Positions 40,181 through 63,388 of a stretch of DNA of 64,000 nt are shown here, piece after piece. Numbering within the stretch: position 1 is the stretch's first letter; every line of letters starts with the position of its first letter. The position numbers and the translations under genes are program-made. Source of the stretch: Nostoc edaphicum CCNP1411 (GTDB taxonomy: Bacteria > Cyanobacteriota > Cyanobacteriia > Cyanobacteriales > Nostocaceae). Under the pieces are notes generated by a model. The model saw nothing but the letters and a program-made list of their open reading frames with translations, made no database searches and was not told the DNA's origin. The stretch lies in contig NZ_CP054698.1 of the NCBI RefSeq assembly GCF_014023275.1, positions 4,340,001-4,404,000 of the forward strand, written 5' to 3'.

Positions 40181-40585
40181 CCAATAGCCAGTCTAGGTAT
40201 TAGGGGCTGGGTATTAGGCATTGTCCCTAGGATGAAGCGCCGGAGTTAGTCAATCCGATTTTACTCGATTGGATTTTGGAGCGATCGCAGCAAAATTAGA
40301 GGCATAATTTACATCGAGCTAACTCAAAATTTTTTATAACGCATCATAATTGACAATTGATTCTTCTGCTGAAATAAGTTAAAGAGAAAATAGATGCTAA
40401 AAATAGCATCTATCTTTCTTAAGACTAGTCCCTGATTCCAATGCATTAATAGAATATAGGAGACGGCTTAAACTCTCTCATAACTTGATTTATCCTGAGC
40501 GAGTTATGTGAGTTTTGTACTATCCCAATTAATTGCAAAGTTGAAATCAAGAGATTATACAGTCTTTAGGCTTTGCTAATTTAGA
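40181..40585. other. Intergenic region between radA and the peptide locus
   Basis: No gene seen. A GAGCGAGTTATGTGAG stretch around 40498-40513 is echoed near 41241 (GAGCAAGTTATATGAG) and 46361 (GAGCGAGTCATAATAG), suggesting duplicated 3' flanks of precursor genes. Confidence 0.5.
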
Positions 40586-40738
40586 TCAGAAGAAGAGGCG
40601 TCTATAGAAGCGAGGTCTATAGAAGCGATGCCTACGCAAAGGAACTATGTAAAAACCATATCTTCCCCCAGATAAAAGTTCCTGTTCTTCTGTGGATAAC
40701 TCTACAAGTAAATCGTGTGTGATCATTTGATTTGACAT
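40586..40738 (-). CDS. Double-glycine-leader peptide precursor, 50 residues
   Basis: A small frame read directly from the sequence: MSNQMITHDLLVELSTEEQELLSGG, then a 25-residue core beginning RYGFYIVPLRRHRFYR. The leader has the LxxELSxEEQxLLxGG form that C39-peptidase exporters recognise and cut after Gly-Gly. The core is strikingly rich in Arg, Phe and Tyr (nine Arg) with no acidic residue, as in membrane-active peptides. GTGAGG lies before the ATG, the same 5' context as the two neighbouring precursors. Part of the core DNA has a 15-bp internal repeat and a GCGTAGGCATCGC repeat-family motif, so it may have been remodelled by a repeat. Confidence is in the precursor call, not in activity. 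Confidence 0.72.
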   Translation of the reverse strand: MSNQMITHDLLVELSTEEQELLSGGRYGFYIVPLRRHRFYRPRFYRRLFF

Positions 40739-41271
40739 GATTATTTGCCTCACTTTTGGATATAGGTTTTACACACCTGTCCATAAACAATTTAGGTGAG
40801 TAATACTTATGCTTTTACTTCTACATATTTTTTTTTAAAGATTCAACTATCCAAAAGTTATAAATTAATAAACTACATTTCTCTAGCAATTCTATTTGAT
40901 TTATGAGAATTACAAATCGGAGATCCCTAATTTATTAAACAAGCAGAATATATTGTTGAATGCGTAATGATTAATTATAACTATTGTTAAAAATAGGTAG
41001 GCATCCATGATGACACAATATCTTCATGGATGCAAAATCACGGCTAAAGCCTTGTCTTGAGTTTTTCCCGGAAAAAATTTACTCGTTAAGTAGTCAAAAC
41101 TACTTGCATCTGGAGCAATACGGTAACAGAAAGGTAAACACTAATCTTAGCAGTTTCCTTGCTTGTCTCTGGTCTGGTGATTTAGCGCCTTAACAAAACA
41201 TAAGAAACTGCCAAACTATCTCAAAATCTGATTGATATTGAGCAAGTTATATGAGACTTATTCTGCACTAA
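40739..41271. other. AT-rich intergenic region between precursor genes
   Basis: No further gene or leader-like frame found. Contains the promoter of the 50-residue precursor, and a perfect-looking hairpin CATCCATGATG...CATGGATG near 41003-41032. Confidence 0.45.
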
Positions 41272-41484
41272 TTAATCTTTTCCTCCTCCGTTTTCTCCGT
41301 TGTTTTCATCCTTGGACTCAGGAAGTCCTCTAACAATGCCGAAAAGTTGAACAGGATACCTCTTTTCACCGTATCTTAAAACGCCCCTAGTTCTAATAAA
41401 GCCATTTTCCCCTCCAGATAGAAGCTGTTGTTCTTCTGTGGATAAGTCCACAAGTAAATCAGATTTCATGGTTTGAATCGACAT
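41272..41484 (-). CDS. Double-glycine-leader peptide precursor, 70 residues
   Basis: The leader MSIQTMKSDLLVDLSTEEQQLLSGG is almost the same as that of the 50-residue precursor; the core starts ENGFIRTRGVLRYGEKRYPV and ends in a Asn/Gly/Lys-rich tail. No cysteine is present, so lanthionine or disulfide formation is impossible. The start ATG follows AGTGAGG. It lies downstream of the C39-peptidase exporter genes on the same strand, which are the likely processing and secretion system. Function of the mature 45-mer is unknown. Confidence 0.8.
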   Translation of the reverse strand: MSIQTMKSDLLVDLSTEEQQLLSGGENGFIRTRGVLRYGEKRYPVQLFGIVRGLPESKDENNGENGGGKD

Positions 41485-41952
41485 AATTAATTACCTCACT
41501 TACTAATGTATAGATATTACAAACTATGCATCAACAATAGATTTCGTAATACCTATACTTTTATTTATAGCGAGAGTCTAAAAATATTAAACTATCCTAA
41601 AGTTAGAAAGATAAATAATAAATCTATAGCTTTTGATTTATGTTTAATCCTATCCCAGGTTGAATGATTTTTAATAATTAAACTACAAAATATCTAGTTT
41701 TTATTATGTGAACAATTTTACTTATTTATCAGTTTTTTAATGATTATCTTTTTTGGAGAGTTTTTTTCTTAATAGTTTTGTTTTAGCCTATAAAGTTTGA
41801 TTGAAAAATCATTTGTTTATTTATATTAATATATATGTATATATAGCAAGAATAAATAATTTATGAGCAACAAAATCCCCGACTTATCAAAAAAGCCGGG
41901 GATCTGAGTTTGCAATTATCACAAATCAAATTTTAAATTCAAAAAGCTACAA
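41485..41952. other. Very AT-rich intergenic region
   Basis: No gene seen. It contains the promoter region of the 70-residue precursor and the terminator hairpin at 41875-41903. Confidence 0.5.
41875..41903 (-). terminator. Hairpin terminator after the exporter-linked precursor
   Basis: ATCCCCG (41875-41881) pairs with CGGGGAT (41897-41903), extended by CTT/AAG; TTTTG follows on the minus strand. It would end transcripts from the HlyD-exporter-precursor operon. Confidence 0.65.
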
Positions 41953-42270
41953 TTATGAAAATAGCTTATTTAAAATTTTACTTATATAATTCTGCCATCT
42001 ATTTCCATCTGGGCTAAAAATTGGCAAGCCAAGTTTTATAGAAGAACCTATGGTAATCTGTGAAAAATTATATCTGGTGTTTTGTGAAGAGACATCAGCA
42101 CCTCCCAGATTTAATGTGCTGTCTGCCGTGCTTTGGATATTAGTTTTCTGGAAGAAAAAATTCCCTTCACTTGGGTAATTTATACTTTGTCCAGCAGTTA
42201 GGCTTTGTTGTTCTTCTTCAGATAGATCCCTAAATAACTCAGGATTGTTGAATGTATAATCTTCAGACAT
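41953..42270 (-). CDS. Ala-Gly-leader peptide precursor, 105 residues
   Basis: Starts MSEDYTFNNPELFRDLSEEEQQSLTAG, a leader of the same type but with Ala-Gly at the cleavage site; the core of ~78 residues (QSINYPSEGNFFFQKTNIQS onward) is Ser/Asn/Thr-rich with no cysteine and resembles other cyanobacterial GG-leader proteins of unknown role. I chose ATG 42270, preceded by GGAG, over an upstream frame start at 42288. It is 30 bp downstream of the exporter stop, so probably co-transcribed and its main client. Confidence 0.8.
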   Translation of the reverse strand: MSEDYTFNNPELFRDLSEEEQQSLTAGQSINYPSEGNFFFQKTNIQSTADSTLNLGGADVSSQNTRYNFSQITIGSSIKLGLPIFSPDGNRWQNYISKILNKLFS

Positions 42271-42300
42271 GGTGTTATCTCCTCGCACTAAGCAAAATTT

Positions 42301-44469
42301 TCACAGTGATATAAACTTTAAATGCTCTCCTTGTTGAGATAAAAAAGTCTCTAAAGTCCCTTGTAGTTTCACCTCACCTTTCTCTAGTAGTACGATCCAA
42401 TCAGCGCGATTGATGACGCTGGGACGATGGGTAATCAAAATTGTGGTTTTGTCTTTTCGGTATTCCAATAGCCGATCTAGCACGTGAGATTCACTTACCG
42501 GATCAAGTCCGGCAGTTGCTTCGTCTAAAATCAGTACAGGTGGATTAGTAAGGATGCCTCTAGCGATCGCTAATCGTTGTCTTTGTCCACCAGAAAGATT
42601 TGCCCCAAATTCCCCTAAAACAGTTTGATATTGATTGGGTAGTTGACTGATAAAGCCGTCTGCATCAGCAATTTGACAGGCTTTGACAATTTCCTCAAAG
42701 GAAATATAAGGCGTTCCTAAGCGGAAATTATCTAAAATCGAACGACTCCAAAAGTGAGGTTCTTGAGGGACATAAATTACTTGTTGTCGTAGGCAATCAA
42801 GAGAAAGGTCTTGGATGTTAAAAAAACCAATGCGGATATTACCAGAATTCGGTTGATATAAGCCTGCGATCAATTTTGCCAAAGTACTTTTACCACAACC
42901 TGACTCACCAATCAAAGCAATCACTTTCCCTCCAGGTAACTTGAGAGAAAAATTTTCGATTAAATCAACTCTGCCAGCGTGGTGAAATTGGAGGTGGGAA
43001 CAACGAATATCTGCATTTTCAGAGATTTGTGCAGTCGGCCTTTGACCACTCCCAACTACTTCTGGTGTAGCATCAATAACTTCCAAAAGGCGAGAGATTG
43101 CTGTTTGAGAGTGAATATATTCATCCATTAAACCAACTAACGAGTTAATTAAAGCCAGGACGTTAACCTGTAAAATATTAAAAGCTAGCATTTGACCTAT
43201 GCTTAATTCACCTTGAATTACCAGAATGCTCCCTAGCCCAAGGATGATGATGCCACCAATGCTGGAAATGAGTCTCGCAACAGTACCGTTAATAATTCCA
43301 ATTTGGATAGTACTATAAGTGAGATTGGCTAGGCGACCAAAACGACTTTGAAGTTCATCCCAGAATTGGGGAGCGGCGTTTGTGGTTTTGACTACCTGTG
43401 CGCCCTTAAAGGTTTCTACTAAAACGCCTTGATTTTCTGACCCCAAGACCAAGAGACTGCGGGTCTTTTGCTGGAGAATGGGCAAGAAAGGCAGAGTAGA
43501 TAGAGTCATTAAAAAGACAATGAAGATGACTACTAGTGTCAACCGCCAGCTATAAAACAGCATGAAGCTGAAAGAAACTACTGCAATGAAAAATTGACTT
43601 GGTAAAAGAACTACAATCTGTGATACCAATTGGTTGATTTCGTTGATATCTCGCAGTCGGCTGATGATTTCGCCACTGCGACGAGCTTCGTAGTAATTTA
43701 AAGGCAATTGGAGAATTTTTCGTCCAAACTCCAAGACTAGCCCTAATTGTAGTCGTTGACCAAAATGAGCAATCATGATGGATTGCAATGCTTGCAGACC
43801 ACTGCTGAATAAGCTCATGACGATAACAGCCAGAACCACAACAGTGAGTAACTGGGTATCACCGCGCACAAGAACATCATCTGTCAGCAGTTGGATGAGG
43901 ATTGGGCTACTGAGAGCGAGTACACCCAGGACAATGTTGATCATCAAGACTTGACTCAGCAATCCCCGATAAGGCAAGATCCGCATTAAAAAGCGCCCCA
44001 AGCCGGCTTTTGCTTTTTCTTTGGGCTGCTTAAAAAAGCGATCCGGATCTGGCTCTAGTAAGAGCATGACGCCATTCCAGGCTGCTGTTAACTCTTCTCG
44101 ATTGATATAACGGATACCTACACCTGGATCGGCAATAACATATTTTTTACCCCGTTTGTCGTATAAAACAACCCAGTGGTGTCCCTGCCAATGAATAATT
44201 GCTGGTAAGTTTATTTCTGTGATTCTGTCTGCGATCGCAGGCGAAGCTTTAACTGCTCTAGCATTGAAACCCAGATTCTCAGATCCACGTTTTAAACCCA
44301 GCAAAGTTGTTCCTAGCTGTCCAGTTCCTACCGCTTCTCGACTGCGATTGATGCTTAAAAAATGCCCGTAATGCTTGGAAATCGAAGCTAGACAAGCTGC
44401 TCCACAGTCTTCTTCACTCAACTGGGAAACACACTGATAATTTTTACGGAATTTAAATAGATCAAACAT
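42301..44469 (-). CDS. Peptidase-domain (C39) ABC transporter for GG-leader peptides
   Basis: A 722-residue bacteriocin-type exporter. The N-terminal C39 peptidase (residues ~10-140) has catalytic Cys22 in SEEDCGAAC, His98 in GHHWVVL and Asp114 in VIADPG. Six membrane helices follow (about 165-450), then an ABC ATPase with Walker A GESGCGKST, signature LSGGQRQRL and Walker B VLILDEATAG. The peptidase cuts leaders after Gly-Gly and the transporter exports the core. HlyD adaptor gene lies 50 bp upstream and a precursor 30 bp downstream, forming one operon. Confidence 0.95.
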   Translation of the reverse strand: MFDLFKFRKNYQCVSQLSEEDCGAACLASISKHYGHFLSINRSREAVGTGQLGTTLLGLKRGSENLGFNARAVKASPAIADRITEINLPAIIHWQGHHWVVLYDKRGKKYVIADPGVGIRYINREELTAAWNGVMLLLEPDPDRFFKQPKEKAKAGLGRFLMRILPYRGLLSQVLMINIVLGVLALSSPILIQLLTDDVLVRGDTQLLTVVVLAVIVMSLFSSGLQALQSIMIAHFGQRLQLGLVLEFGRKILQLPLNYYEARRSGEIISRLRDINEINQLVSQIVVLLPSQFFIAVVSFSFMLFYSWRLTLVVIFIVFLMTLSTLPFLPILQQKTRSLLVLGSENQGVLVETFKGAQVVKTTNAAPQFWDELQSRFGRLANLTYSTIQIGIINGTVARLISSIGGIIILGLGSILVIQGELSIGQMLAFNILQVNVLALINSLVGLMDEYIHSQTAISRLLEVIDATPEVVGSGQRPTAQISENADIRCSHLQFHHAGRVDLIENFSLKLPGGKVIALIGESGCGKSTLAKLIAGLYQPNSGNIRIGFFNIQDLSLDCLRQQVIYVPQEPHFWSRSILDNFRLGTPYISFEEIVKACQIADADGFISQLPNQYQTVLGEFGANLSGGQRQRLAIARGILTNPPVLILDEATAGLDPVSESHVLDRLLEYRKDKTTILITHRPSVINRADWIVLLEKGEVKLQGTLETFLSQQGEHLKFISL

Positions 44470-44519
44470 ATTTACCGAACTTTAAAATTGGTACACAAAG
44501 TCAGCAGAGCAATTTTGAA

Positions 44520-46028
44520 TTAAAAATCTGTAATTAATCGCGCTTTTCGGAGAATGAAATGAAGTACCGTTTCTTGGCGAGAAATAATATCTGCTCTACC
44601 TTCCATCCCCGACTTTAGATGACACTGGCGATCGCCTCTACCCAAATATGGTTTTTGCGGTTGAATAGTTACCTGATAAGCGAGTACCTGCGCCACATTC
44701 TGATCTACGTTGTTTTTTAAAGTTGGTAGAGCATCTGGTGCAACTGTTTCGACAATTCCTTGGAGAGTCCCATAGTCTGGATAGGGACAAGCGGAAACTT
44801 GCATTTGGACTTTTTGACCCGCTTTTACCTTGTCAATATCTTGAGCCTGCACGCGAGTTTTAATTAACAAAGGAGCTTTGAGGGGAGCAATCTGAGCGAT
44901 CGCTTCACTGGGTTGCACTACCTGTCCTGGGTTGCGAAGATGCAATTGCAGCAGGGTTCCGGCGATTGGCGATCGAATTACACTCTTATTTAGATCGGTT
45001 TTTACTTGTTGTAGTTCTTGACCACTGCGATCGAGTTGCTTTTGCAATTCAAGGCGCTGCTGTAGAAGAGTCTCTCTTTCTTTGTTCAAAGCAGCTAAGG
45101 TCGCCTCACCTTTTGCTTGTTCCTGCTTAATCCGCTCAGATGCCACCGTTACAACAGCATTACTAGGATTGATCGCGGTTCTAGCCTTTTCTAAGTCCGT
45201 TTGTGCAACCTTAAAAGCGTATTCTTTTTCCTCCATGAGATTTTTCGCGCTAGCTTTAGCTTCTTCTAGCTTCGCTTCAGCAGACTTAACCGCTTGTTCT
45301 TTTTCCTCAAACAGATTACGAGGAACTGCTCCTGATGCTACTATCGGCTGCAATCGCTCTCTTTGTAGCCGAGTTAATTTCAAAGCTGCTTCCGCCTCTT
45401 GAACCGTTGCTATTAAGACTTTTTCTCGCAGCAATCGCTCTTTTTGCACCTTCGCTAAGGTCAAGGCTGATTCTGCTTTTGTCATATCAGCTGTAGCTTT
45501 AATTTGCTGATCTTGATAGTTGCGTTGAATACCACCAAACTCAGCTTGTGCAGCCATAATTGTGCGGTTAATTAAGTTTGTCTGAGCCGCAATCTGGACA
45601 TTCATTTCACCGAGTTGAGCATCAATTTGATTTAGTTGTAATTGACTCTGTTGAATACTGCTTTCTAATTGACTTTTTTGGGTCTGGAGTTGAGAATCAT
45701 CAACGTAAGCAATAGCTTGTCCTTTAGTTACCACCTGATTTTCTTGAACATCTATCTTTTGAATGATTCCATTCATCGCAGACTGAACAATTCGCTGTTC
45801 TCCAACAGGTCGAATACTTGCAGGGACTTTAACCGTGACGTTGTAATTCAGAACTGATGTAAGACTCACTCCTGCCACAAAAATAGTTAGCAGAATTCCT
45901 CCTCCAAAGTTTGTCCATTTACCGAGATGAGGGAGAAACTCGTTAACTTCAACTAAATGAAGTTGGTCTGGATTAAGTTCATTAAACCTATTCCAAGAAG
46001 AGTCCTCCACTGTGCGTAAGGATTTCAC
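44520..46028 (-). CDS. HlyD-family periplasmic adaptor (membrane fusion protein)
   Basis: A 502-residue adaptor: one N-terminal membrane helix (about residues 36-58), the biotinyl-lipoyl half motif (MNGIIQKIDVQENQVVTKGQAIAYVDD), a long coiled-coil hairpin rich in Ala/Glu/Lys/Gln (about 100-340) and the second lipoyl half (SPIAGTLLQLHLRNPGQVVQPSEAIAQI). It bridges the inner-membrane exporter and an outer-membrane TolC-like channel. Position 50 bp upstream of the C39 exporter shows that the two work together. The outer-membrane component is not in the window. Confidence 0.92.
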   Translation of the reverse strand: MKSLRTVEDSSWNRFNELNPDQLHLVEVNEFLPHLGKWTNFGGGILLTIFVAGVSLTSVLNYNVTVKVPASIRPVGEQRIVQSAMNGIIQKIDVQENQVVTKGQAIAYVDDSQLQTQKSQLESSIQQSQLQLNQIDAQLGEMNVQIAAQTNLINRTIMAAQAEFGGIQRNYQDQQIKATADMTKAESALTLAKVQKERLLREKVLIATVQEAEAALKLTRLQRERLQPIVASGAVPRNLFEEKEQAVKSAEAKLEEAKASAKNLMEEKEYAFKVAQTDLEKARTAINPSNAVVTVASERIKQEQAKGEATLAALNKERETLLQQRLELQKQLDRSGQELQQVKTDLNKSVIRSPIAGTLLQLHLRNPGQVVQPSEAIAQIAPLKAPLLIKTRVQAQDIDKVKAGQKVQMQVSACPYPDYGTLQGIVETVAPDALPTLKNNVDQNVAQVLAYQVTIQPQKPYLGRGDRQCHLKSGMEGRADIISRQETVLHFILRKARLITDF

Positions 46029-46368
46029 GGCATTGCACCTTTTGTTGTGAATGGATACATGAAAAAATCAGGTGATCTAAAAGTCAAGCCTGTTGCGTTG
46101 ACACAAAGGCATTGATAAATCCCTCTAAATAAGGTGTTTACGGCTTATCTGCTAAAAATACTTTGCTAAAAAGTGAAACAGTAACAGATGCTGCTAACAG
46201 TGACAAACATCATGCTTTACAATGTTCTATAATCGAAAAAGGGGGAAGAGAAAGGTATGCGCGACGCGCCAGAATCACCTTCCTCAAATTTCTAACGTGT
46301 GCAACGCGTTAAAAAAAATGTAGGAGAACGCTCAAACTCCCTCAAAGTCCTCACTTACGTTGAGCGAG

Positions 46369-46428
46369 TCATAATAGTCTCCTCCATCCCCCTTTTATTC
46401 CCAAAAATGCGACAATTTGATGTGGCAT
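46369..46428 (-). pseudogene. Remnant of a peptide-precursor 5' end
   Basis: The upstream context GTGAGGCTAACAAT and first codons MPHQIV match the precursor at 47326-47604 (MSHQII), but the frame then diverges (ending GIKGGWRRLL) and stops after 19 residues. Probably a decayed copy; a very short peptide is possible. Confidence 0.4.
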
Positions 46429-46760
46429 TATTGTTAGCCTCACTAGCATGATCCTAATGAAAAATCACCATTACAGAGATTGATTGGTGGATGTAGTTTT
46501 GCGGAAAGTCTTGATTTTAGATATTTGGGTTATATAGACAGCACATCTGTAGACAGGGGATTTATAAAATCTGCGATCGCTTCTACAAATCAATGAGAAG
46601 AAACCTTGAGTGGCGAAATTGTTCAACACCACCCAAATCGCCCAGTCAAGTTTGCTATTTGACTAAACAAATCATCATTCTTAACTGTTTCAAAACCCAT
46701 ACTCGCCATTCCCCGCCGAAATTTATTGGTGAAGCGCTCTTAAGTGACAACTTTTGCAGG

Positions 46761-46862
46761 TTATTTGTAGGAATGGTTGAAGAATAGAAACGACAGGTAA
46801 GCCTGTAATTTCCCTAGTGGAAACAGATCCACCCAAATTAATGTGATTCTTTGATGTGACAT
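46761..46862 (-). pseudogene. Remnant or divergent copy of a peptide-precursor 5' end
   Basis: GTGAGGCTAACAATCATG and the codons MSHQRIT match the 47604 precursor start exactly or nearly so. The following 26 residues (LIWVDLFPLGKLQAYL...) are hydrophobic and have no GG leader, so the 5' end appears to have been copied onto unrelated sequence. Confidence 0.4.
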
Positions 46863-47325
46863 GATTGTTAGCCTCACTTACGCACCTCTTTGATAAAAGA
46901 TTCCAGAGGCTAACTCGCTGAGATAGTATTCCCTAAAGCATTTAACCAGATAATTCGGCTGTACAAAAGGGAAAATCATAGAAAAGCTCTGGAATCTAGG
47001 GCTGTTTCCAGCACCCAAAAAAGGGAAACCTTAAGCACCCATATTACTCAGCACTATCACGATAGCGGAGATTGCGGTACCGTATCGAGAATTGAACAAG
47101 ATGACTCTTGCAATATCAGCTATTTTGTTCAAAGTTGGACATTTTAGGTAGGAAAGTAGCAAAAGAGAACAAGTTTGATGAAAAAATAAATTTATTTTTC
47201 ACTTTTGACTTTTTGAGAACCCCACTTACTATTCCCTACCTAAATTTGCAAAGTACTTTGATGTAACAGCTGATTTTTCAAGCTATCTATGCTCCGTCAT
47301 CTCCAAGACCATTGCCAGCAACGTT

Positions 47326-47604
47326 CTAACCACGAACTGATGACGCACCCAAGGCTCCAACTCCTCTAGGAAGATTTCCACCTAAGCCCAAGAAGTCTCG
47401 TGCAGCTGTATTGACAGCACTATTAATGCCTATGGAGGTGGCGCTGCTACCGCGAGGGCCGGAAGTGGTTCTTCCGATTAAAGCACTCCGTCTGCTACCG
47501 AAATTGCTGCCGCTTAACTCAAAGTCGGCACCACCTACTAGCATCTGTTGTTGCTCATCAGATAACTCGTTAAGCAACTCAGATGTAATTATTTGATGTG
47601 ACAT
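47326..47604 (-). CDS. GG-leader bacteriocin-like precursor, 92 residues (CTB-like)
   Basis: MSHQIITSELLNELSDEQQQMLVGG is a canonical double-glycine leader; the core begins ADFELSGSNFGSRRSALIG and is rich in Gly, Ser, Ala and Arg with no cysteine. The ADFELSGSNF motif and the tail (INSAVNTAARDFLGLGG) resemble what I recall of a cyanobacterial bacteriocin-type family called CTB. ATG 47604 has GTGAGG upstream; a longer frame to 47619 lacks support. It is on the same strand as the exporter genes, 1.3 kb upstream of HlyD, likely with its own promoter. Toxicity is not shown by sequence. Confidence 0.82.
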   Translation of the reverse strand: MSHQIITSELLNELSDEQQQMLVGGADFELSGSNFGSRRSALIGRTTSGPRGSSATSIGINSAVNTAARDFLGLGGNLPRGVGALGASSVRG

Positions 47605-62417: not shown

Positions 62418-62987
62418 ATGCTACGCCAAATCTCTTTGGGAACACTCGGTTTAACTATCGGCGGCATATTAACGGTTATTGGCTTCATCGCCTATGCTGA
62501 TAATAATGCCACACTCAATCTTGTCGGATTTTTTTACGGCATTCCTCTCTTGTTGGGAGGACTAGCGCTGAAAGCTAATGAACTTAAGCCAGTACCCTTT
62601 AGCCAAACTACGTCACCTTCAGCACTGATGCTACGCCAGCAGCAAGCAACTGATACTCAAAATAAAATTCGCAAAGATATTACCCGATATTGCTACGGTC
62701 AAGATGCTCATTTAGATACAACACTTTCTTTTCTGGGTTTGAGTCCTACAGACCAGGAGCGGCCAACAGTCACAGGGTTGCGAGAAACAGAAGTTAATGG
62801 GAACTATGCCCTAATTTTAGAATTTGATTCACCGCTAATACCATTTGATGCGTGGCAAAAAAAGCAGGAAAAAATGACCAACTATTTTGGCCCTGGATTG
62901 GAGATTCAAATAACACAGCCATCTGAAAATACAATTGAGCTAGCGTTGATCAATACTCAAAAAGAGTCACTAGTCAGCAGTCAATAG
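62418..62987 (+). CDS. DUF2854 membrane protein
   Basis: A 189-residue protein: two N-terminal helices (LGTLGLTIGGILTVIGFIAY; LVGFFYGIPLLLGGLALKANELKPVP) and a soluble C-terminal domain (YCYGQDAHLDTTLSFLGLSP, YFGPGLEIQI). This is the DUF2854 family of cyanobacteria and plastids. No function is established. Its end runs into a TAGTCAGCAGTCAATAG repeat. Confidence 0.87.
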   Translation: MLRQISLGTLGLTIGGILTVIGFIAYADNNATLNLVGFFYGIPLLLGGLALKANELKPVPFSQTTSPSALMLRQQQATDTQNKIRKDITRYCYGQDAHLDTTLSFLGLSPTDQERPTVTGLRETEVNGNYALILEFDSPLIPFDAWQKKQEKMTNYFGPGLEIQITQPSENTIELALINTQKESLVSSQ

Positions 62988-63388
62988 TCAGAGGATGTTT
63001 TAAAAGTCCTTTTATCGGGAGTAAAACGTTTTAGATCCCCCAAAGTCTCCCTTATTAAGAGGTTGTTTGAAAAGTGTTTCGCTGTGACTTTTATCACTTT
63101 TAGATCCCCCTAAATCCCCCTTAAAAAGGGGGACTTTAATTCTGGTTCCCCCCTTTTTAAGCTATCCATTATAAACATCTTTCTTAATAAGAACATTGAC
63201 AAAAAAGAGTAGTTATGTAGGGAAGGATGGAAGCCAAAAAATCACAAGTGACAGGAGAAAATGGGCACGAGAATCAACAGAGTTTGAAAAAGTGAAATTT
63301 TCGCATGGCAACTTTGGTGTAAAAAACTAATTATCGGTAGTGGAAGAAGGAAAACACCGCAGAAACCGACGATAGGATGGAGCAATAA
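62988..63388. other. Repeat-rich intergenic region beside an IS remnant
   Basis: Contains two TTTTAGATCCCCC units (63028 and 63098), a CCCCCTTAAAAAGGGGG palindrome (63114-63130) and an inverted CCCCCCTTTTTAAG copy at 63147. This is common interspersed foldback DNA. The right part (63200-63388) abuts the transposase remnant and may hold its end, but no terminal inverted repeat could be matched. No gene seen. Confidence 0.5.

Follow-up and report, generated by a model that had tools for sequence, protein, structure and literature searches.

What purpose does a cyanobacterial locus serve that appears to send several unlike peptides through a single exporter? The question is raised by a 64,000-nucleotide (nt) stretch of the 8.3 Mb Nostoc edaphicum CCNP1411 genome, hereafter called the window, whose minus strand carries four short precursors (three with Gly-Gly (GG) leaders, one with an Ala-Gly leader), a C39-peptidase ATP-binding cassette (ABC) exporter and an HlyD adaptor. 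All of these genes lie where a first-pass annotation had placed them; it had read their products as a diversifying peptide cocktail for competition or cell-cell signalling. Here, we tentatively propose that this is a type I C39-peptidase secretion locus of the kind known from the CTB family and from group III of Wang 2011 (PMC3140520), whose peptides may be structural or adhesive components outside the cell. As far as sequence can tell, the leaders, the exporter, the adaptor, a conserved gene order and a conserved structured RNA are in place. The structured RNA, the cassette layout and two conserved core families, predicted to be hairpins and free of excess amino acid change, favour a role in the matrix over that of a diversifying weapon. 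In the order of transcription, the CTB precursor is followed by two orphan precursor 5' ends, HlyD, the C39-ABC exporter, the Ala-Gly precursor and two GG precursors, with RNA elements in between:

47326..47604, minus strand: CTB family precursor (C1), GG leader and 67-amino-acid Ser/Gly/Arg core; NF038167 78.0 bits; predicted hairpin 38-49/52-63
46841..46882, minus strand: orphan precursor 5' end, repeat family D2, 95% identity with the 5' end of the 47604 gene (pattern match)
46407..46448, minus strand: second orphan precursor 5' end, repeat family D2, 79% (pattern match)
46226..46399, minus strand: structured RNA copy 5' of hlyD (alignment, covariation, model R1 190.8 bits)
44520..46028, minus strand: HlyD-type periplasmic adaptor; HlyD_3 76.9 bits, TIGR01843 159 bits (under its cut-off of 208.65)
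42301..44469, minus strand: short-type C39-peptidase ABC exporter; C22/H98/D114; 56% identity to PteB
41953..42270, minus strand: Ala-Gly precursor, 78-amino-acid core; predicted hairpin 38-55/59-76 and C-terminal helix; NF038167 23.9 bits (under cut-off)
41508..41558, minus strand: stem-loop preceding the ribosome-binding site of the 41484 gene; the 67-nt stretch containing it has z -5.7 relative to dinucleotide shuffles
41272..41484, minus strand: downstream GG precursor 1, 45-amino-acid charged core; orthologues in G016 and G030
41105..41276, minus strand: structured RNA copy at the end of precursor 1; R1, E 3.6e-06
40586..40738, minus strand: downstream GG precursor 2, 25-amino-acid Arg/aromatic core, net charge +8
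40368..40534, minus strand: structured RNA copy 52 nt past precursor 2; R1, E 4.8e-06

The evidence for the structured RNA comes from related loci. Twenty orthologous loci with an exporter identity of 84-99% were fetched (the next match has 73%), which together with the window gives 21 loci; the closest by exporter among 99 relatives is G016 (99%). Upstream of hlyD, some 174 nt can be aligned in 20 of the 21 loci (not in G042), although the identity of HlyD drops to 59%. RNAalifold, applied to 13 of the 20 rows, predicted four helices with 32 pairs, six of which show changes on both sides. The fraction of paired cells (95.7%) exceeds that of shuffled alignments (93.7%, standard deviation (sd) 0.4; 0/500 as high), and the same holds for the cells changed on both sides (12 vs 4.9; 0/500), the covariation score (0.155 vs 0.118; 0/500) and the pairs changed on both sides (6 vs 3.5; 16/500). 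Sliding the helix partners lowers pairing to 49-65%. Most compensatory changes fall into helices 2 and 4; helix 3 says little by covariation because it is almost invariant.

A covariance model of this RNA (R1) was run over 27 sources and yielded 75 matches at E<=1. Of these, 23 are hlyD copies (in 20 of the 21 loci and in L083, L087 and L091) and 27 are same-strand copies past downstream precursors (22 of them at E<0.01); a further 24 cover the same places on the opposite strand, and the last one, in the window (62950-63161, E 0.91), is unrelated. All 26 secondary copies in loci with mapped genes (26 of the 27) start -7 to 68 nt from the stop codon of a downstream precursor. At E<=1, the model found no match in L010 and L011 of the same genome, in L132, which is the EbfG locus discussed below, or in L004-L008. 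Among 20 further CTB or C39 loci, an hlyD copy was present in seven (L134-L137, L139-L141), with exporters about 80-84% identical, and absent from the other 13. In its own genome the hairpin string of the RNA is unique. With stricter filters (E<=1e-6), 77 of 192 Nostocaceae genomes contain a match, and 20 of these places, mostly from other genera, were fetched (19 primary, 1 secondary). The 19 primary matches all lie upstream of an HlyD match (within about 1.6 kb), and a C39 exporter was also seen at 18 of them; in the remaining case (L159) the contig ends. In several genomes, for instance G469, the RNA occurs without an Ala-Gly match at 1e-5. The secondary copy (L174:8486-9836) trails Gly/Tyr- and Gly/Trp/Arg-repeat precursors, and no C39 or HlyD match was found in the 18 kb fetched; these precursors are possible orphan cassettes that use an exporter encoded elsewhere. 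The structured RNA is thus a new handle that may expose orphan precursors, because this one match marks precursors with no exporter found nearby. Rfam gave no match at the gathering score in the window, and at E up to 1 a single snoRNA match on the other strand (20.2 bits vs a gathering score of 84). A narrow literature search retrieved no paper on the structured RNA, which may nevertheless have been published before. A regular expression for the 3' element, tried as well, gave only five matches and was replaced by the covariance model.

What could this RNA do? Folded singly, the downstream copies form the terminal hairpin but not all four helices; their last hairpin covaries and is followed by a U-rich stretch, and therefore 3'-end formation or attenuation is the first guess. 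Most likely, the RNA acts as a 3'-end or attenuator module, which would keep exporter mRNA scarce while precursor mRNA is plentiful. A stem-loop 5' of the ribosome-binding site is frequent in downstream precursors (mean z -2.42, n=43, 23 below -2), as compared to random pieces (mean z -0.28, n=126, 8 below -2); the mean z of the 5' regions is -0.82 for C1 genes and -1.18 for Ala-Gly genes. The downstream genes' own arms pair better than swapped ones (-11.5 vs -8.6, sd 0.46; 0/10,000 permutations; 41 of 43 genes, two having no anchor). The own 5' arm ranks within the best four in 17 of these 41 genes and outside in 24, and the arm test shows no effect on C1 genes (own -9.8, cross -10.0). In the window, the 41484 gene has a strong stem-loop (z -5.7), the 40738 gene none (z -0.3). 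Moreover, the string GTAAGTGAGG in the near-invariant hairpin loop of the hlyD RNA copy also precedes the ATG in the 47604 and 41484 genes and in one orphan end; the 40738 gene carries only AAGTGAGG, and the Ala-Gly gene carries neither. A more far-reaching interpretation, rather unlikely when taken as a whole, is that the RNA represents an undescribed Nostocaceae regulatory family tying the exporter operon to dispersed secreted-peptide cassettes; that a single ligand, be it a protein or an antisense RNA, could control both, since GTAAGTGAGG occurs in this loop as well as at the ribosome-binding sites of several precursors; and that the peptides form a composite extracellular material of beta-hairpin fibres with acidic and cationic Gly/Trp/Tyr-rich low-complexity partners.

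The layout of the cassette recurs in the 20 orthologous loci and is therefore more than chance. The syntenic order in Nostocaceae is one or more CTB precursors, HlyD, C39 and an Ala-Gly-type precursor, usually followed by one to four precursors with very unlike cores, and the same order was found again in other genera of the family. Upstream of hlyD, CTB-type precursors were detected by leader motif in 11 loci (12 genes) and as open genes by tblastn in six more; they are altered, decayed or fragmentary in G054, G014 and G042, and with neither approach was one seen in G053. The Ala-Gly-type precursor 3' of the exporter is open in 17 of the 21 loci, truncated in G042 and decayed in G014, and none was seen in either G053 or G054; its cleavage site reads GG in G022 and G032. 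Further downstream, 43 GG precursors are distributed over 19 loci (1-4 per locus), while G032 has none and the contig of G023 ends there. A flank of phytol-kinase, yidD and ychF genes is common to 10 of the 21 loci only, and the cassette therefore sits at other sites too. The first-pass annotation had proposed searching for shared leaders, and the precursors do recur: the CTB precursor has 61 homologues at E<=0.001, named CTB family bacteriocin, with CTB matches in 66 of 388 genomes sampled over the class (47 above cut-off), and the Ala-Gly family is present in 111 of 192 Nostocaceae genomes.

Two of the core types, CTB and Ala-Gly, form conserved families found across genera. The upstream precursor scores 78.0 bits with NF038167 (cut-off 32), and the other three remain under the cut-off (26.4, 18.9 and 23.9 bits). 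In hhalign, the CTB and Ala-Gly families match each other with 81.6% probability (E 1.1e-05) over leader and core. AlphaFold predicted local hairpins in both cores, with a block of predicted local distance difference test (pLDDT) values of about 80 at residues 41-60 for CTB and of 70-77 at residues 41-70 for Ala-Gly. The two faces of the hairpin differ in column entropy, 0.57 vs 1.41 bits in Ala-Gly (p=0.00065) and 0.71 vs 1.73 bits in CTB (p=0.005; 0.014 on the smaller alignment A2). The CTB test with the AlphaFold register is not independent because the register derives from the same alignment, and without strand register it gives p=0.33. The amphipathic C-terminal helix of the Ala-Gly core is significant in two members (p 0.036 and 0.003). 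Both cores are thus predicted to be beta-hairpins with one conserved face. The downstream cores are mutually unlike, and many consist of silk-like Gly/Trp/Tyr/Arg repeats. In the 16 loci with at least two downstream precursors, the first core is net negative in eight and the last has a net charge of +5 to +10 in 15 (Wilcoxon p=0.0006). Cysteine occurs in seven of the 43 downstream cores, none of them in the window, and all four window cores are free of it, as had been noted before.

The word "diversifying" in the first-pass annotation holds in part. The downstream set turns over through repeats and indels and through the gain or loss of genes, so that "varied" is right. Selection for change was not found: in data pooled over 10 close genome pairs, which are not independent, the ratio of non-synonymous to synonymous polymorphism (pN/pS) is 0.29 for the Ala-Gly core, 0.49 for the CTB core and 0.63, 0.41 and 0.24 for the first, second and third downstream core. 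The cores thus give no sign of positive selection, all classes being below 1. The leaders are not always tighter than the cores (Ala-Gly leader 0.46 vs core 0.29). The exporter is under much stronger constraint than the cores, with a non-synonymous divergence (dN) of at most 0.019 at a synonymous divergence (dS) of 0.06-0.31 in close genome pairs.

The exporter (722 amino acids) consists of Peptidase_C39, ABC_membrane and ABC_tran domains and has no N-terminal nucleotide-binding domain by Pfam, which makes it a short-type exporter; the adaptor contains HlyD_3. The catalytic residues C22, H98 and D114, already called intact by the first reading, are all present. With PteB of Synechococcus elongatus the exporter shares 56% identity across 712 amino acids, and the HlyD proteins of both organisms share 35%. 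The five long-type paralogues of the same genome that were compared share 31-34% with the exporter. A tree of 25 rows (L002 of the same genome left out; L005, L007 and L008 untrimmed) separated short from long type at 100/100 and placed PteB on the side of the window exporter, on a long branch. Among the orthologues, HlyD diverges far faster than the exporter (59-97% vs 84-99% identity), and some of the HlyD matches run to about 600 amino acids.

Both the secretion of EbfG and the formation of biofilm are reported to depend on the catalytic Cys of PteB (PMC4997328), a display assay is reported to show amyloid formation by EbfG1-3 (PMC9981879), and the secretion system is listed as PteB, HlyD and EbfE (PMC12647202). 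The nearest experimentally studied system is one that serves biofilm formation (PMC4997328, PMC9981879). The peptides of the window may be glue rather than antibiotics because their export machinery resembles a biofilm-serving one. In such a mechanism, the C39 domain would cut the precursors after GG or AG, and the C39-ABC exporter, HlyD and a TolC-like outer channel, presumably encoded elsewhere, would export the cores. The CTB and Ala-Gly hairpins might stack via their conserved face into fibres or sheets, and the acidic and cationic Gly/Trp/Tyr/Arg-rich downstream peptides might be variable partners in a sheath or biofilm.

Several observations weigh against a matrix role. The overall confidence of the AlphaFold models is low (mean pLDDT 57.8 for CTB and 59.7 for Ala-Gly; predicted template modelling score (pTM) 0.25 and 0.32). 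Hydrophobic alternation is not significant in single core sequences and was dropped as proof of beta structure. A fold search with the Ala-Gly model had no match at E<=0.001, and its Foldseek list contains pore-toxin stems and no fibres (probability up to 0.75, E 0.6-0.9, non-significant). The CTB and Ala-Gly cores matched the EbfG peptides in hhalign with 37.8% and 3.8% (3 of 4 EbfG), values that do not establish homology of the cores to EbfG. The exporter clade of the window also adjoins a LanM gene on a Dolichospermum plasmid and a radical-SAM-like gene in L011. For the RNA, the measure of further pair types gives no support because 483 of 500 shuffles were at least as high (16 vs 17.2 in shuffles). 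Moreover, loss of pilB or ebsA is described to abolish rather than enhance biofilm in Nostoc punctiforme (PMC11407516), a paper whose main text mentions neither EbfG nor PteB.

A serious rival, doubtful in our judgement but by no means far-fetched, is antagonism: the cores would act on related cyanobacteria as a mixture of unmodified bacteriocins or microcins, in which hairpins could oligomerise into pores and cationic aromatic cores could disrupt membranes. The NF038167 label, the strongly cationic and aromatic last downstream cores, the variation of the repertoire among strains and the pore-toxin stems listed by Foldseek would fit such a function. However, the bacteriocin family name is based on annotation, two cores are conserved across genera, no core class shows excess amino acid change, and the acidic and Tyr/Asn/Gly-repeat cores are unlike membrane-active peptides. 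A role in cell-cell signalling, such as during the development of hormogonia or heterocysts, with one conserved core as pheromone and the others as by-products, appears improbable. Reports state that the C39 exporter HetC is required for heterocyst differentiation in Nostoc PCC 7120 (PMC10986499) and that some Nodularia CTB genes rise under phosphate starvation, whereas a second cluster does not (PMC9846622). HetC is said to carry a nucleotide-binding domain at its N terminus (PMC10986499), a trait of the long type, while the long-type paralogues compared are distant from the short-type exporter of the window, and low-complexity cores of 67-78 amino acids are long for pheromones.

Modification of the cores in trans by an enzyme of another locus is very improbable. 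The candidate enzyme is the radical-SAM-like ORF (open reading frame) of a second related locus in the same genome (L011:7364-13202; C6:1207000-1226000), recognised by a CxxxCxxC motif read by eye, which adjoins a 66% identical C39 exporter together with HlyD and GG precursors; the locus looks like a modified-peptide cluster. Likewise, a LanM gene is annotated under the match on the plasmid of Dolichospermum sp. DET69 (CP070234.1, 36046-38190), next to a 59% identical exporter. However, the window cores lack Cys, L011 holds precursors of its own, and no such enzyme was found in the 23 window ORFs scanned, the search for LanM and YcaO not being genome-wide. The earlier statement that LanM, radical SAM and YcaO genes are missing thus agrees with the scan of 23 of the 46 window ORFs (at least 120 amino acids).

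Other arrangements of such genes were seen in passing. A third locus of the same genome (L010:7180-12325; C6:5912000-5931000) has two CTB precursors and one Ala-Gly-type precursor upstream of a C39 exporter (64%) and HlyD. In other genera, short CTB-like precursors stand in tandem, with six or seven nearly identical copies per array (L138:7915-9716, L142:8767-10571), with no strong C39 match in L138 and a partial 32% match in L142. In the window, the probable starts are the ATGs at 40738, 42270 and 47604, slightly inside GTG-started ORFs. Both orphan 5' ends comprise a ribosome-binding stretch and the first few codons but lack a GG leader; their region has a 96% match in G016, and G009 retains an open second CTB precursor there. 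A strong hairpin at about 41870-41905 on the minus strand, just 3' of the Ala-Gly precursor (-23.4 kcal/mol in a 50-nt stretch), is a possible end of the exporter operon. The scan found 16 promoter-like sites (18.9 expected) and four terminator-like sites (5.4 expected); no promoter is claimed because the count is not above expectation.

How, then, does the locus compare with known systems? NF038167 (cyan_ocin_like; domain PF28158) defines the CTB family bacteriocins, and the upstream precursor belongs there (78.0 vs 32 bits). The Ala-Gly and the two downstream precursors (18.9-26.4 bits) differ, and the structured RNA lies outside the protein family. With the group III clusters of Wang 2011, which average 3.89 precursors according to the portion of that report available (PMC3140520), the window shares the short-type C39 exporter, HlyD and several precursors, and no SurA, LanM or second ABC exporter was found among the ORFs scanned; the Ala-Gly hairpin family and the structured RNA are not described in that portion. 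The traits of a lanthipeptide (LanM) cluster were not found, there being neither Cys in the window cores nor LanM among the ORFs scanned. With the PCAT1-type exporters (4ry2, 6v9z, 7t54 and others), the exporter aligns from residue 7 to 717 and shares the DCGAAC motif; indeed, its best solved relatives are chains named ABC-type bacteriocin transporter (4ry2 and others, E about 1e-116). In contrast to these, the HlyD of the window implies export over two membranes. The PteB/EbfG system of S. elongatus PCC 7942, compared as L132 in G128 and recognised by peptides printed in two reports (PMC4997328, PMC9981879), with EbfG1, 2 and 4 identified and aligned and EbfG3 left out, resembles the locus in its exporter (56%), HlyD (35%), adjacent GG/GA precursors and Ser/Ala/Thr-rich cores. 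However, ebfG1-4 form one transcript in S. elongatus, whereas the precursors of the window flank the exporter, and R1 has no match at the EbfG locus. Hundreds of cyanobacterial GG-peptides have been filed as bacteriocins on the leader sequence alone (Wang 2011 gives 290 precursors; PMC3140520), and this locus offers a concrete alternative to that label: two conserved cores, predicted to be beta-hairpins, with variable, possibly sticky peptides and a PteB-like exporter. Judged by its genes, the locus belongs to a known class and is ordinary within it, the kind being already in print through NF038167 and Wang group III. As far as our searches go, three things are new: a conserved structured RNA, the way the cassette is laid out around it, and two conserved families of predicted hairpin cores without excess change.

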